This document shows, piece after piece, positions 22,191 to 55,192 of a DNA stretch of 64,000 nt (position 1 is the first letter of the stretch; each line of letters opens with the position of its first letter). This DNA is from Pseudomonadota bacterium. Its GTDB lineage: Bacteria > Pseudomonadota > Gammaproteobacteria > Xanthomonadales > SZUA-38. A program made the translations under genes and the position numbers. The notes below the pieces were generated by a model that saw only the letters and a program-made list of their open reading frames with translations, searched no databases and was not told the origin of the DNA. The stretch lies in contig JBCCCR010000024.1 in the NCBI GenBank assembly GCA_039033415.1, positions 1-64,000 on the forward strand. The letters run 5' to 3'.

Positions 22191-22312
22191 CTGCGTGTTG
22201 AAAAACGCAGTTTTTCGGCGCGCAGCATTCGGTACAAGGATATGCCGACATTTTCGATGGCCTCAAGCCATTGAAAATGTAAGCCAAGTGAAAATCGCAT
22301 TTTTCACTTGGC
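22191..22312 (+). repeat. Series of three long stem-loops
   Basis: Stem 1: 16 pairs, 22191-22206 with 22210-22225, loop GCA. Stem 2: 14 pairs, 22248-22261 with 22267-22280, loop CTCAA. Stem 3: 12 perfect pairs, 22283-22294 with 22301-22312, loop TCGCAT. All non-Watson-Crick pairs (three in stem 1, one in stem 2) are G-U in plus-strand RNA but A-C in minus-strand RNA. Stems 1 and 3 share an apex of the form GAAAA..CGCA..TTTTC. It may be an RNA element or a dispersed intergenic repeat; no family is recognised. Confidence 0.6.
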
Positions 22313-51776: not shown

Positions 51777-53192
51777 TTGACTGTCCGTACCCGATTTGCC
51801 CCCAGCCCCACCGGCTTTCTTCATGTGGGTGGCGCCCGCACGGCGCTGTTCTGCTACCTGTACGCCCGCCGCCATGGCGGCGAGTTTGTGCTGCGCATCG
51901 AGGACACAGACCGTGAACGCTCCACGCAGGAATCGGTTGCCAGTATTCTCGATGGCATGGCCTGGCTGGGCCTTGAGTCGGATGAAGCGCCGATCTTTCA
52001 ATCCAGACGGAACGATCGCTATCGAGAGGTCATCGAGAGGCTGCTGACGGAGGGCCACGCCTATCGCTGCTACTGCAGTCCCGAGCAGCTCGAAGCAATG
52101 CGGGCCGCGCAGGAGTCGGCTGGGTTGAAGCCTCGCTATGACGGGACGTATCGGGATTTCACCGGCACCCCCCCGGCCGGCGTCAAGCCGGTGATTCGTT
52201 TCCGTAACCCCCTCACCGGCAGCGTTAGCTGGCACGACGCGGTGAAGGGCCGGATCGAGGTTTCCAATGAGGAGCTGGACGACCTGATCATCGCCCGCAG
52301 CGACGGTAGCCCGACCTACAACCTGACCGTGGTTGTCGACGATCTGGATATGCAGATCAGCCACGTGGTGCGCGGTGACGATCATGTCAACAACACCCCC
52401 CGCCAGATCAATATGTACCGGGCGATGGGCGCGGAGCCGCCTGTCTTTGCTCACCTGCCGATGATTCTGGGCTCGGACGGCTCGCGCCTGTCCAAGCGTC
52501 ACGGGGCGGTGAGCGTGCTGGCCTATCGCGATGAGGGTTATCTGCCGGAAGCCTTGCTCAATTACCTGGTCCGGCTGGGCTGGTCACACGGCGATCAGGA
52601 GCTGTTTTCGCTGGAGGAGATGATCACCCTGTTTGATCTGAAGGACGTAAACCGGGCACCGGCCAGCTTCAACACCGACAAGTTGCGCTGGCTCAACCAG
52701 CAGTACCAGATCGACTCTGAGCTCGAGTCTCTTGGCGCCCGCCTCGCGCCAATTCTGGAGGCGGCTGGCTACGAGCTGGCGAGCGGCCCGCCGCCCGCTG
52801 CCGTTGCCGGGCTCTTACGCGAGCGTGCGGCAACGCTTCAGGAAATGGCGCAGCAGGCAGACTTTCTGTTTGTTGAACCCGCCCGGTATGAAGAAAAGGC
52901 TGAAGCCAAACAGTTCAAGGCGGCGGCCCTCGAGCCGCTCAAGCGGGTCAGACAGCAGCTGGCACAGCACGAGGACTGGACTCCCGAGGCCCTCCAGACG
53001 CAGCTCCAGCTTGTGGTCGACGATCTCGGTGTTGGCTTTGGCAAGGTGGGGCAGCCGCTGCGCCTGGCGCTCACTGGCCGCGGTGCGGCGCCGGGCAATG
53101 ATCAAGTGCTGGCGCTGCTCGGCCAGGATCGCTCCCTGGGGCGTATCGATCGCGCGCTCGATCGGATCCAGGCCCGAGCTGAGACGGGCTGA
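51777..53192 (+). CDS. gltX: Glutamyl-tRNA synthetase
   Basis: GltX charges tRNA-Glu with glutamate. The 471-residue class I synthetase starts at TTG 51777 as MTVRTRFAPSPTGFLHVGGAR, where HVGG is the HIGH motif, and has the KMSKS-equivalent LSKRHG near residue 240, the catalytic RIEDTDRERS and the C-terminal anticodon-binding helices. TTG is preferred because the family start aligns there and no upstream ATG exists. The QueD-like gene begins 3 bases after its stop and may be cotranscribed. Confidence 0.96.
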   Translation: MTVRTRFAPSPTGFLHVGGARTALFCYLYARRHGGEFVLRIEDTDRERSTQESVASILDGMAWLGLESDEAPIFQSRRNDRYREVIERLLTEGHAYRCYCSPEQLEAMRAAQESAGLKPRYDGTYRDFTGTPPAGVKPVIRFRNPLTGSVSWHDAVKGRIEVSNEELDDLIIARSDGSPTYNLTVVVDDLDMQISHVVRGDDHVNNTPRQINMYRAMGAEPPVFAHLPMILGSDGSRLSKRHGAVSVLAYRDEGYLPEALLNYLVRLGWSHGDQELFSLEEMITLFDLKDVNRAPASFNTDKLRWLNQQYQIDSELESLGARLAPILEAAGYELASGPPPAAVAGLLRERAATLQEMAQQADFLFVEPARYEEKAEAKQFKAAALEPLKRVRQQLAQHEDWTPEALQTQLQLVVDDLGVGFGKVGQPLRLALTGRGAAPGNDQVLALLGQDRSLGRIDRALDRIQARAETG

Positions 53193-53195
53193 CGC

Positions 53196-53651
53196 GTGTA
53201 CCGTTCGTCCAAGAATTTTCGAGGCTATCCGTGCGCGCACCGCAAATGGCGCCATGAGGGCCACTGCTCGCTGCTCCACGGCTACAGCCGCAGCTTTGAG
53301 GTGTGGTTCGCTTGTGAGCAGCGCGATCGCCATGGTTTTGTCATGGATTACGGCGACCTGAAGGAGCCGCGCCAGTGGCTCGAAGACCATTTCGACCATA
53401 CCGTGCTGGTGGACGCTGACGACCCGCTCCTTGAGCAACTTCGGTCGCTCGAGGCTGCCGGCGGCTGTCGGCTGGTGGTGTTCGACGACGTGGGTACCGA
53501 GGGCAGTGCTCGGGAGTTTTACGACTACCTGGAGCCCTGGGTTCAGCAGCGAACCCAGGGCAGGGTATGGGTGCACTCCGTTGAGTGTCGGGAAAACGAG
53601 AAGAACTCGAGCATTTTTATTGCGCCAACTAGTGCGCTGTCCCGCAAGTAA
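53196..53651 (+). CDS. 6-carboxytetrahydropterin synthase (QueD)-like protein
   Basis: The 151-residue product has the zinc-binding histidines and catalytic Cys of the 6-pyruvoyl/6-carboxytetrahydropterin synthase family: CAHRKWRHEGHCSLLHGYS (about 13-31) with Cys-x3-His, then DYGDLK and DHTVLVD. QueD makes a queuosine precursor; no other queuosine gene is nearby, so another pterin role is possible. The start is GTG 53196. The TAA stop lies in the centre of a 43-bp palindrome, whose left arm encodes the last residues (TSALSR and the start of K). Confidence 0.82.
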   Translation: MYRSSKNFRGYPCAHRKWRHEGHCSLLHGYSRSFEVWFACEQRDRHGFVMDYGDLKEPRQWLEDHFDHTVLVDADDPLLEQLRSLEAAGGCRLVVFDDVGTEGSAREFYDYLEPWVQQRTQGRVWVHSVECRENEKNSSIFIAPTSALSRK

Positions 53652-53671
53652 CTTGCGGGACAGCGCACTAG
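53629..53671. terminator. 43-bp perfect palindrome centred on a stop codon
   Basis: Arms 53629-53649 and 53651-53671 are perfect 21-bp inverted repeats around a single A at 53650, and the TAA stop of the QueD-like gene is 53649-53651. No T-run follows on either strand. It lies between two convergent genes (marR stops at 53681), so a bidirectional terminator or processing hairpin is the simplest role. Confidence 0.6.
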
Positions 53672-53680
53672 GTTGAATCC

Positions 53681-54103
53681 CTAGGCCAGGCTGTTGAGCT
53701 GCTCACCGAGCTCGGCCATCCGTTCGCCGGGCAGGCCAACCGCCAGGTCCTGTGCCCGCTGACAAAAGCTCGCCAGCGCGTCCCCGTAGATTTCTTTGCC
53801 CGCCGCCGATAGACGTACGAGGCTGACCCGAGCGTCCCGAGGGTTTCGCTCCTTCTCGACCAGGTGGATCTTCTCCATGGGGTTGAGCAGGCGGGTCACG
53901 CCGGAAGCCGTTAGCCCAACGGTCTCCGCGAGATCCACCCGTCGCATGGTTTCACCGGGCGCTTGCGCCAGGTGGTGCAGCACCCGGAACTCGGTAAAGC
54001 TAATCCCATGAATGGCCAGCGTGTGGTCGAGCCTGCGGCTGACGCGATTGCCCGCCTCGGTCAGGCTCATGAGCAGGCTGGCGGCAGAAGTTAAATGTGA
54101 CAT
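53681..54103 (-). CDS. MarR-family transcriptional regulator
   Basis: The 140-residue winged-helix protein has the MarR layout: dimerisation helix, then FTEFRVLHHLAQAPGETMRRVDL in part, recognition helix GLTASGVTRLLNPME and the wing EKERNPRDARVSLVRLSAAG. MarR proteins repress stress or efflux genes in response to small ligands. The ligand and target are unknown. Its upstream DNA (54104-54165) is unusually AT-rich for this genome and contains an imperfect dyad, probably its operator. Confidence 0.9.
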   Translation of the reverse strand: MSHLTSAASLLMSLTEAGNRVSRRLDHTLAIHGISFTEFRVLHHLAQAPGETMRRVDLAETVGLTASGVTRLLNPMEKIHLVEKERNPRDARVSLVRLSAAGKEIYGDALASFCQRAQDLAVGLPGERMAELGEQLNSLA

Positions 54104-54165
54104 GTGATTGAGTTATGCTTGTGTAATATTTGAGTAAGCAAGTATTTCATAACACGTTCTCTCGC
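54104..54165 (-). promoter_or_regulatory. AT-rich putative promoter/operator of marR
   Basis: On the minus strand TTGCTT and CATAAC are separated by 18 bases, with the -10 box only about 8 bases from the marR ATG, suggesting a very short leader. An imperfect dyad with outer arms TTATG/CATAA and inner arms CTTG/CAAG spans the same stretch. The AT content contrasts with the surrounding GC-rich DNA. Confidence 0.35.
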
Positions 54166-54208
54166 GCAACCCTCGCCGCGACCGATGATTTTTGTGTTGA
54201 GGACGGGC

Positions 54209-55192
54209 CTAGCGAGCGACCGGCTTGCCTTTGCAGTGCCCTGGCTCTGAGCGCCAGACCACCGGCTCCCAGTACTCGTCATGTTCCGCCTGCTGCTTGC
54301 GCTCGTGAAGGAGCTTGGCGGCGACGTGGTAGACCATGCCGTCCGCCACCTCCAACGTCATCTGGCGCGCCTGGCGGCGCTTGGCAAACCGGGTGTGCTT
54401 GATCCGAAGCTCACGGCTGGGAATCAGGTCACTGACCAGCAGCTCGTATTCACCCGGCGGCAGGTATTGAAAGCCGCGCATGATGCCGCCGCTGTTATTA
54501 ACGTTGATCCCCATGAGGTAGGCCGGATAGAGATTGAACTCGTGCGGCGGGGGGTCATACAGCGACAGCGTGCCGCAGGGAGAGCGGTCATCATCCGATC
54601 CGGGCGGTGCGCCCAGGATCAGGTCTTCCGGTGGCCCATCGTCCTCAGGCATCGAAAGCGCGAGTTCAACCCGCGGCAGCTGCCATTTCTGCAGCGGCGC
54701 GGTCAGCGTTTCGCGACGGTTGCCGCGGGCGACGATCAGGGTCACGGGGTCGTTGGCCGGGATCTGCTGAAGCATGTTGGAAACCCGATCAACCGCTCGC
54801 GAGACCCCTTTGTCATCCTGGCCGAGGCCGAGCAACGGTTCGGTGTTCATGGACACAATCCGATCACCGGCCCGCAGCCCCATAGCGGCGGCCGTGCTGC
54901 CGGGCGTCACCGCCACCACGGGCAGGCCCAGCGAATCGATGTCGGAGCTGCGGGTATCGCCGTAGATCACGCCCAGATTGATCAGCGCTTCCGGCTGCTG
55001 GCTGAAGACCACATCCAGGTCTTCGCCGTCGAACAGCGGGTCCTGTGCCAGGGAGATCAGCATGGTGCGGATCGCCTGGTTGATTCGCTCGTTGCGGGGG
55101 TCACCGCCGCCGCTCTGGGCCGGAAGGATGCTCGGCCAGCTCAGTATCGCGGCAAGCGTGAGGGCAACGGCTGCTGGGCGCTGGGCACTCAT
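54209..55192 (-). CDS. Exported PDZ-domain protein
   Basis: The 327-residue product has a signal peptide (cleavage near residue 26, after LPAQ) and one PDZ domain (about 85-165, with PVVAVTPGSTAAAMGLRAGDRIVSM). The C-terminal half (about 180-327) is of unknown fold with a basic tail. There is no protease domain, so the PDZ domain may bind C-termini of envelope proteins. It is the last gene of the sigma factor/membrane protein/PDZ operon, its ATG overlapping the preceding stop (ATGA). A role in envelope signalling is inferred from position. Confidence 0.78.
   Translation of the reverse strand: MSAQRPAAVALTLAAILSWPSILPAQSGGGDPRNERINQAIRTMLISLAQDPLFDGEDLDVVFSQQPEALINLGVIYGDTRSSDIDSLGLPVVAVTPGSTAAAMGLRAGDRIVSMNTEPLLGLGQDDKGVSRAVDRVSNMLQQIPANDPVTLIVARGNRRETLTAPLQKWQLPRVELALSMPEDDGPPEDLILGAPPGSDDDRSPCGTLSLYDPPPHEFNLYPAYLMGINVNNSGGIMRGFQYLPPGEYELLVSDLIPSRELRIKHTRFAKRRQARQMTLEVADGMVYHVAAKLLHERKQQAEHDEYWEPVVWRSEPGHCKGKPVAR

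Follow-up and report, generated by a model that had tools for sequence, protein, structure and literature searches.

IS630 is said to target the TA within CTAG, which is reportedly what the title of a 1991 paper by Tenzen and Ohtsubo states. The literature describes a preference of IS630 for TA within CTAG (PMC6811581), the duplication of TA by IS630 (PMC2170065), and the use of the same CTAG target by ISPsy32, an IS630-family element of plant Pseudomonas (PMC8027508). Short repeats with some of these features, or with a palindromic structure, are also described: RUP of Streptococcus pneumoniae (IS630-Spn1), with IS630-like terminal repeats, a TA target and no gene of its own (PMC2229807, PMC3049150); SPRITE, a short hairpin found at scattered sites and enriched between convergent genes (PMC3049150); Rickettsia palindromic elements (RPE), which lie in coding sequence and are read as protein (PMC2229807, PMC10969869); and REP, a high-copy repeat tagged at one end with GTAG or CGTC (PMC3733652).

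The locus described here was found in a window of 64 kb (the whole stretch of DNA analysed, 64,000 nucleotides) belonging to a genome of 6.4 Mb in 62 contigs, hereafter the host genome (G000), and it was compared with the sole other genome of the same genus in the comparison, hereafter the relative (G001). At the junction of two convergent genes lies a perfect palindrome, which we read, with a probability of roughly 0.88, as a non-autonomous IS630-type element of minimal size that was inserted directly or as a longer MITE and gave one of the genes a new tail and stop codon. The features are as follows.

53196 to 53651, plus strand: QueD/PTPS-like gene (PF01242), with its final six codons and TAA inside the element (ORF, Pfam and orthologue comparison).
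53629 to 53671, no strand: 43-bp perfect palindrome, C-TA-(37-bp element)-TA-G (sequence).
53629 to 53657, plus strand: one terminal repeat with subterminal bases, CTAGTGCGCTGTCCCGCAAGTAACTTGCG (side-by-side comparison of ends).
53630 to 53631, no strand: presumed TA duplication, left copy, within CTAG 53629-53632 (sequence).
53632 to 53668, no strand: putative inserted element proper, GTGCGCTGTCCCGCAAGTAACTTGCGGGACAGCGCAC, 37 bp, if the duplication is TA by the IS630 rule (sequence, IS630-family ends and literature on TA duplication).
53653 to 53657, no strand: TTGCG, a 5-base word standing at the two edges where a type-A MITE would have lost its interior, in a subterminal position in one end and inside the other (CTTGCG in 2 of 4 type-A ends).
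53658 to 53671, minus strand: outer 14 bases, probably of the opposite terminal repeat (comparison of ends).
53669 to 53670, no strand: presumed TA duplication, right copy, within CTAG 53668-53671 (sequence).
53672 to 53684, plus strand: presumed earlier end of the QueD-like frame, (-R)LNP-TAG once 39 bp are removed, with a TAG that would overlap the marR stop (deduced).
53681 to 54103, minus strand: MarR-family gene, convergent, stop codon 53681-53683 (ORF and Pfam).

The palindrome, CTAGTGCGCTGTCCCGCAAGT-A-ACTTGCGGGACAGCGCACTAG, consists of two 21-nt arms that are 100% complementary around the centre base 53650, and the TAA of the QueD-like gene (53649-53651) stands at its centre. The left-arm codons at 53631-53648, AGT GCG CTG TCC CGC AAG, are read as S-A-L-S-R-K. 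Thus, the original prediction of a 43-bp perfect palindrome with a central stop codon was correct, as were its statements that the left arm sets the last six residues and that the right arm faces the convergent marR gene. The runner-up among perfect inverted repeats in the window (spacer up to 10) had 12-nt arms, compared to 21 nt in the palindrome, and the longest arm in 20 first-order Markov sequences of window size ranged from 9 to 12 nt. This second longest repeat of the window lies at 22283-22312, with a spacer of 6. Folded as a 43-nt RNA, the palindrome reached -39.9 kcal/mol, and none of 200 shuffled sequences was as stable. The palindrome is real and far beyond chance. CTAG, which bounds it on both sides, was observed 28 times in the window, compared to about 218 expected from base composition.

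The QueD-like gene starts 3 nt past the gltX stop codon. Its product scored below the NCBIfam QueD cut-off (47.3 versus 89.25 bits), and HGY was found in this protein and its three relatives at the place of the QueD zinc motif, which is HGH. A separate inverted repeat with 11-nt arms (GCCCTGGGTTC..GAACCCAGGGC) lies inside the gene at 53534-53561, and one of its bases differs in the relative. Orthologues of the QueD-like gene were identified in the relative (94% identity over residues 1-145) and in the genomes G003 and G002. In the relative, both the queD-like gene and marR align on either side of the junction, and the palindrome is absent. The C-termini, which the original prediction had proposed to align, read SIFIAPTSALSRK in the host, SIFLAPPRPAGA in the relative, GLFIASDSS in G003 and GLYVPDDRV in G002; the tail of the relative thus differs from that of the host. 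Removing 39 bp, that is, the element with one CTAG, brings the frame to a TAG at 53682-53684, which overlaps the marR stop codon and lies in a second CTAG, so that the host protein would end in SIFIAPTRLNP*. Because this tail (...IAPTRLNP*) is near that of the relative (...LAPPRPAGA*), we take SALSRK and the stop codon to have been supplied by the insertion. In this comparison of a filled with an empty site, the flank of the relative has diverged at the junction and is without CTAG at the matching place, and for this reason the 39-bp insertion and the exact empty site are deduced rather than read directly. The direction was probably a gain in the host, a judgement that draws on the nature of the element, and a loss in the relative is the lesser possibility. 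The rule given with the original prediction, by which an arm not conserved in close relatives would indicate chance or an artefact, would mislead here, since the site appears to be a lineage-specific insertion and yet the arm recurs elsewhere.

The original prediction had also proposed a search for further copies of the arm in the genome. With up to 3 mismatches, the 21-base arm had four matches in the host genome, namely the two focal arms and the two ends of one element on contig C18 (3 and 1 mismatches), and the reversed-pattern control gave no match. This element (C18:102642-102911) is a 270-bp MITE in which the arm copies face each other, with ends CAGTGCGCTGTCCCGCAAATAACTTGCG... and ...TTATTTGCGGGACAGCGCACTAG, and its counterpart in the relative, on contig C53, is 268 bp long. 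From GTG onward, CTAGTGCGCTGTCCCGCAAGTAACTTGCG of the palindrome matches the C18 MITE's left end except at a single base (G for A). An exact search for the end TAGTGYSCTGTCCCGCAA in 398 genomes of the order gave 19 sites, spread over 6 of them, compared to 0 for the reversed pattern. In G030, 5 MITEs, each 163 bp long, carried the ends TAGTGTCCTGTCCCGCAA, which were exact on both sides in 4 of them and had one mismatch at one end in the fifth, and G006 contained 4 end pairs together with a single unpaired end. At up to 2 mismatches, 14 of 101 genomes matched the arm, with at least as many for the reversed pattern, so single sites at this level correspond to chance and only paired ends were counted; ends without a partner within 1.5 kb were seen at 11 of 30 loci. 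Six matches to GCTGTCCCGCAA outside elements in the host genome were dropped, having no partner within the 220 bases displayed. In addition, a palindrome of the focal type was found at a different locus in the relative, on contig C82 (CTAGTGTGCTGTCCCGCAAATAACTTTCGGGACAGCGCACTCG), which is imperfect and has an altered right end.

Beyond these genomes, the 270-bp MITE gave one partial match among plasmids (25% of the query, Azotobacter) and none in phages, and CTAGTGYSCTGTCCCGCAA gave none in viral contigs. A 41-base degenerate pattern of the palindrome matched 0 stretches in the collection of species genomes. When the core was relaxed and a spacer of 0-25 allowed, 15 stretches matched, which were set aside as unrelated, because none had TAGTG beside the core and several were terminator-like. 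Rfam gave 4 matches, all under the gathering scores and taken as chance.

MITEs with related interiors were also observed at two places on C18 of the host, 102642-102911 and about 105109-105380 (L157 7642-7911 and 10109-10380), and at three places in the relative (C9:65-336, C53:121470-121737 and C79:16240-16531). They bear two kinds of ends, TAGTGCGCTGTCCCGCAAATAAC or TAGTGTCCTGTTTGGAAAGTTCG; the interiors of the two kinds are 78% alike over 170 columns, and the two ends of the C79 copy are unlike each other. It looks as though the same MITE core had been given ends suited to different transposases.

In order to assign the ends to a transposase family, 10 genomes were searched with PF13358 (DDE_3), which matched in two, G002 and G030, and not in the host, the relative or G003. 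The transposase of G030 (L090), of 361 aa, lies between the ends TAGTGTGGTGTCCCAAAAATAAT and TAGTGTGGTGTCCCAAAAGTAGT and was assigned to IS630 by NCBIfam (NF033545, 268.9 bits, cut-off 100), with Pfam DDE_3 and helix-turn-helix domains. Used as a query, it matched 15 of 398 genomes of the order at 1e-20 and 1869 plasmid records at 1e-5; neither the host nor the relative matched at 1e-20. Since the PF13358 and L090 searches were both negative there, no mobilising enzyme of the IS630 kind was found in the host, and thus the palindrome shows no sign of present mobility. Around L090-related transposases, a TA-ended inverted repeat pair was found at 14 of 28 loci, 13 of the 14 pairs being of the TAGTG/TAATG type (9 distinct elements) and the one at L099 of another type. 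At the other 14 loci, several of which hold only a partial gene, such a pair was absent by the criterion used.

Out of 23 bases, the ends of the 9 IS630-family elements shared 10-17 with the focal arm and 12-19 with the C82 arm. The weakest were from Marinobacter, Acidovorax and Janthinobacterium (10-12 and 12-13, respectively), and an end from G068 (TAATGTCCCGTCCCGCAAATATC) was among the best (17 and 19). The best ends therefore differ from the focal arm at 6 of 23 bases; the arm is identical to none of the IS630 ends found, and no autonomous element with an identical repeat was found. As a control, 2522 TAG sites in 24 hand-chosen loci were scored against the arms, and 11 reached 16 or more: 4 IS630 ends, 5 MITE ends, the C82 palindrome and 1 unrelated site, where several of the 10 element-end matches match by construction. 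The base outside TA was C (left) or G (right) at 17 of 18 ends of the 9 elements, and likewise in all 5 copies of one element in G323. The palindrome is likewise flanked as C-TA...TA-G, giving CTAG on both sides as in IS630 targets.

The palindrome thus has IS630-like terminal inverted repeats and TA in CTAG on both sides, as IS630-type MITEs do, and it lacks an interior of known-MITE size, being 37 bp long with no interior and no gene inside. Because nothing lies between its repeats, we call it a reduced derivative and not an ordinary MITE. Together with the missing palindrome and the different QueD tail in the relative, the IS630-type arms support the suggestion in the original prediction that a mobile remnant supplied the end of the gene. 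The element would consist of two terminal inverted repeats of the IS630 (Tc1/mariner-like) kind standing nearly back to back, 37 bp together with the duplicated TA. An IS630-family transposase would have inserted it into a CTAG close to the queD-like gene's 3′ end, either as the 37-bp unit or as a longer type-A MITE later reduced in place, most simply after the split from the relative. From this insertion the QueD-like gene would have gained its SALSRK tail and new stop codon, the latter being central because the inner bases of the repeat (RTAAC) fell in frame.

How the two ends came to lie back to back can be explained in two ways, of which we slightly favour, as somewhat the likelier, that a longer MITE shrank in place. 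In all 4 readable full-length type-A ends (two on C18 of the host and two on C53 of the relative), CGCAAATAACTT, containing TAA, lies on the inner side, and in 2 of the 4 it continues with CTTGCG, which gives a built-in inverted repeat CGCAA...TTGCG. One MITE end would then already have held the short inverted repeat CGCAA-RTAAC-TTGCG as the source of the symmetry. A deletion between two TTGCG words, a 5-base repeat, would have removed the MITE interior and left a near-perfect palindrome, and one further A-to-G change would have made the last mismatched pair G-C and the palindrome perfect. The TTGCG words at both edges argue for this course, as does the small size of the element: a pair of transposase-bound ends in mariner-type transposition should need more than 37 bp, and two such ends are hard to place on that length. 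Fold-back copying of one end was rejected as another source of symmetry, since the flank should then stand inverted right beside the repeat, and no such copy was seen.

The second explanation, which we regard as a serious but weaker candidate, is that the 37-bp palindrome is itself what transposes, as one unit whose two ends overlap and which might, for instance, start from an extruded cruciform. The junction CAARTAACTTKCGGGACAGCGCAC is of the same kind at two loci in two genomes, the focal locus and C82 of the relative, which would follow from movement; the TTGCG words at both deletion edges could, however, independently recreate the same junction. With overlapping ends, two bound transposases would not fit as usual, and the copy numbers are tiny, with one core copy in the host, one in the relative and no second host copy at up to 3 mismatches. 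Two further observations, described below, are in favour of a moving unit, namely a pair of similar palindromes at two loci of the host and the finding that 7 of 398 genomes each contain one short CTAGTG...CACTAG palindrome.

A scan for TAGTG N(18-48) CACTA gave 14 sites in the host and 11 in the relative, and since the reversed pattern matched 228 and 237 times, the number of sites proves nothing. Arm length split the sites cleanly: at 20 of the 25 the arms stop after 5-6 bases, of which the pattern itself requires 5, and at the other 5 they extend to 11-20 bases. The five long-armed sites are the focal one (C24), C11:140569 and C14 in the host, and C9 and C108 in the relative. The palindromes on C11 and C14, each 36 bp long, differ from each other at 3 bases, and the one on C9 belongs to the second MITE type (ends TAGTGTCCTGTTTGGAAAGTTCG), full-length examples of which exist in both genomes. 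Across the order, CTAGTGNNNTGN(6-36)CANNNCACTAG was found in 7 of 398 genomes, once in each, as palindromes of 29-43 bp (CTAGTG...CACTAG) including the focal one; here also the number of hits proves nothing, as the reversed pattern (GATC for CTAG) matched about 10 genomes. What is telling is their symmetry, with 60 of 74 free half-positions pairing, compared to about a quarter expected; it ranged from 5 of 9 in G181 to 13 of 13 in the focal palindrome and G121. Among these seven, only the focal, C9 and G076 palindromes have ends that could be likened to MITE or IS630 ends beyond TAGTG, which was not the case for G020, G160, G181 and G121.

Taken together with the sites in the two same-genus genomes, 11 palindromes were compared for their settings. 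Five have convergent reading frames as neighbours: for the focal, C14 and G076 palindromes the genes to the left and right are Pfam-supported, and for C11 and G181 the plus-strand neighbour lacks a Pfam match. C82, C108 and probably C9 lie between same-direction frames and G121 between divergent frames, which accounts for all but G020 and G160. In 4 of the 11 (focal, C11, C14 and G076), the stop codon of a gene lies inside the element. A CTAG-targeting element may tend to settle harmlessly at stop codons, because CTAG is rare and contains TAG, with 11 palindromes being a small sample. The wider proposal, that palindromes of 29-43 bp made of overlapping IS630-type ends transpose into CTAG in cruciform or hairpin form and settle at gene ends, is speculative and in our view rather unlikely. 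An empty site for the C11 palindrome was sought by synteny on C79 of the relative, where the stretch does not align and none was found.

The C82 palindrome (L151 8440-8515) was seen inside what appears to be a further hairpin (GCCCCGTCT ... AGACGGGGC), as if inserted near a stem loop, with no T-run after it. Insertion into a pre-existing hairpin was considered for this reason and set aside: the C82 flanks GCCCCGTCT/AGACGGGGC pair, the focal flanks pair weakly and, judged by eye, the others do not. Among other short repeats, TAGTGT/ACACTA boxes recur with similar spacing at G000:C4:176768-176812 and G001:C35:52140-52184, perhaps as the operator of a regulator. Three short palindromes start with CTAGTGTAGTG... 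(L144 1501-1537, L146 1501-1542 and L143 1501-1535), and these starts look as if one mini-element sat in the centre of another (CTAGTG-TA-CACTAG).

The original prediction had considered that the palindrome stops transcription in both directions, and a bidirectional terminator, selected as such to halt RNA polymerase from both sides, would suit a very stable stem between convergent genes. Five of the 11 comparable palindromes share the convergent setting, 3 of them with Pfam-supported genes on both sides, and several of the 15 unrelated CTGTCCCGCAA...TTGCGGGACAG stems in other genomes are followed by T-runs in the manner of terminators. However, the 10 bases past the stem hold at most 4 T on either strand at all 11 palindromes and 3 per strand at the focal one, which agrees with the absence of a T-run noted in the original prediction, and without a U-tract after any of them the palindrome was not called an intrinsic terminator. 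A scan of 52500-55000 gave one terminator site, at 52580-52598, and none at the palindrome; a simple scan of the same region found no promoter-like site. The palindrome is also missing from the same gene pair in the relative, and its arm is accounted for by MITE ends. Pneumococcal repeats and IS are, according to one study, generally over-represented between convergent genes (PMC3049150), so this setting needs no terminator function. Hence we consider selection as a terminator improbable. The present effect of the element is most likely passive, a strong hairpin without a U-tract where two convergent messages have their 3′ ends, which may slow exonucleases and protect the mRNA, or make the polymerase pause.

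A palindrome of the REP/REPIN type, to which the short length and the position at a gene end might point, is very improbable given symmetric CTAG ends rather than a tag at one end and one core copy in the host genome rather than many. Equally improbable is chance or an assembly artefact by hairpin ligation, of which perfect symmetry can be typical, since 20 Markov sequences reached arms of 12 nt at most versus 21 and since the arm occurs at other loci, with CTAG on both sides and an imperfect sister palindrome in another genome.

If the element arose as we propose, transposon ends alone can become the terminus of a gene, providing its tail, its stop codon and a hairpin, and CTAGTG...palindrome...CACTAG is a simple signature for finding fused ends. 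Should the 37-bp units be mobile by themselves, they would, to our knowledge, be smaller than any other transposable unit of the DDE type and push down the size limit of DDE transposons, and the minimal length for mariner-type transposition would be directly testable with them; by moving into CTAG, they would give genes new stops and tails and place a hairpin between convergent genes. If they are not mobile, they document how MITEs decay, and they caution against taking every perfect palindrome at a stop codon for a terminator. No description of fused IS630 ends of similar size was found among the matches listed from the open-licence literature, which is weak evidence of novelty, and the letters of a related end were not found in that literature.

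Compared to the systems named at the outset, the palindrome resembles RUP in its terminal repeats, target and lack of a gene, although RUP measures 107 bp and the element here 37 bp, without an interior, with repeats overlapping in one perfect palindrome and with few copies. SPRITE resembles it as a hairpin between convergent genes; however, SPRITE hairpins carry a U-rich tract and are not significantly similar to the ends of pneumococcal IS, whereas here the ends are of the IS630 type and a U-tract is absent. RPE, also palindromic and translated, are about 105-150 bp long and form in-frame fusions within genes, while here the central TAA ends the gene. With IS630 of Shigella sonnei the element shares the TA-in-CTAG target and the TA duplication, and where IS630 is autonomous, the palindrome consists of the ends alone.
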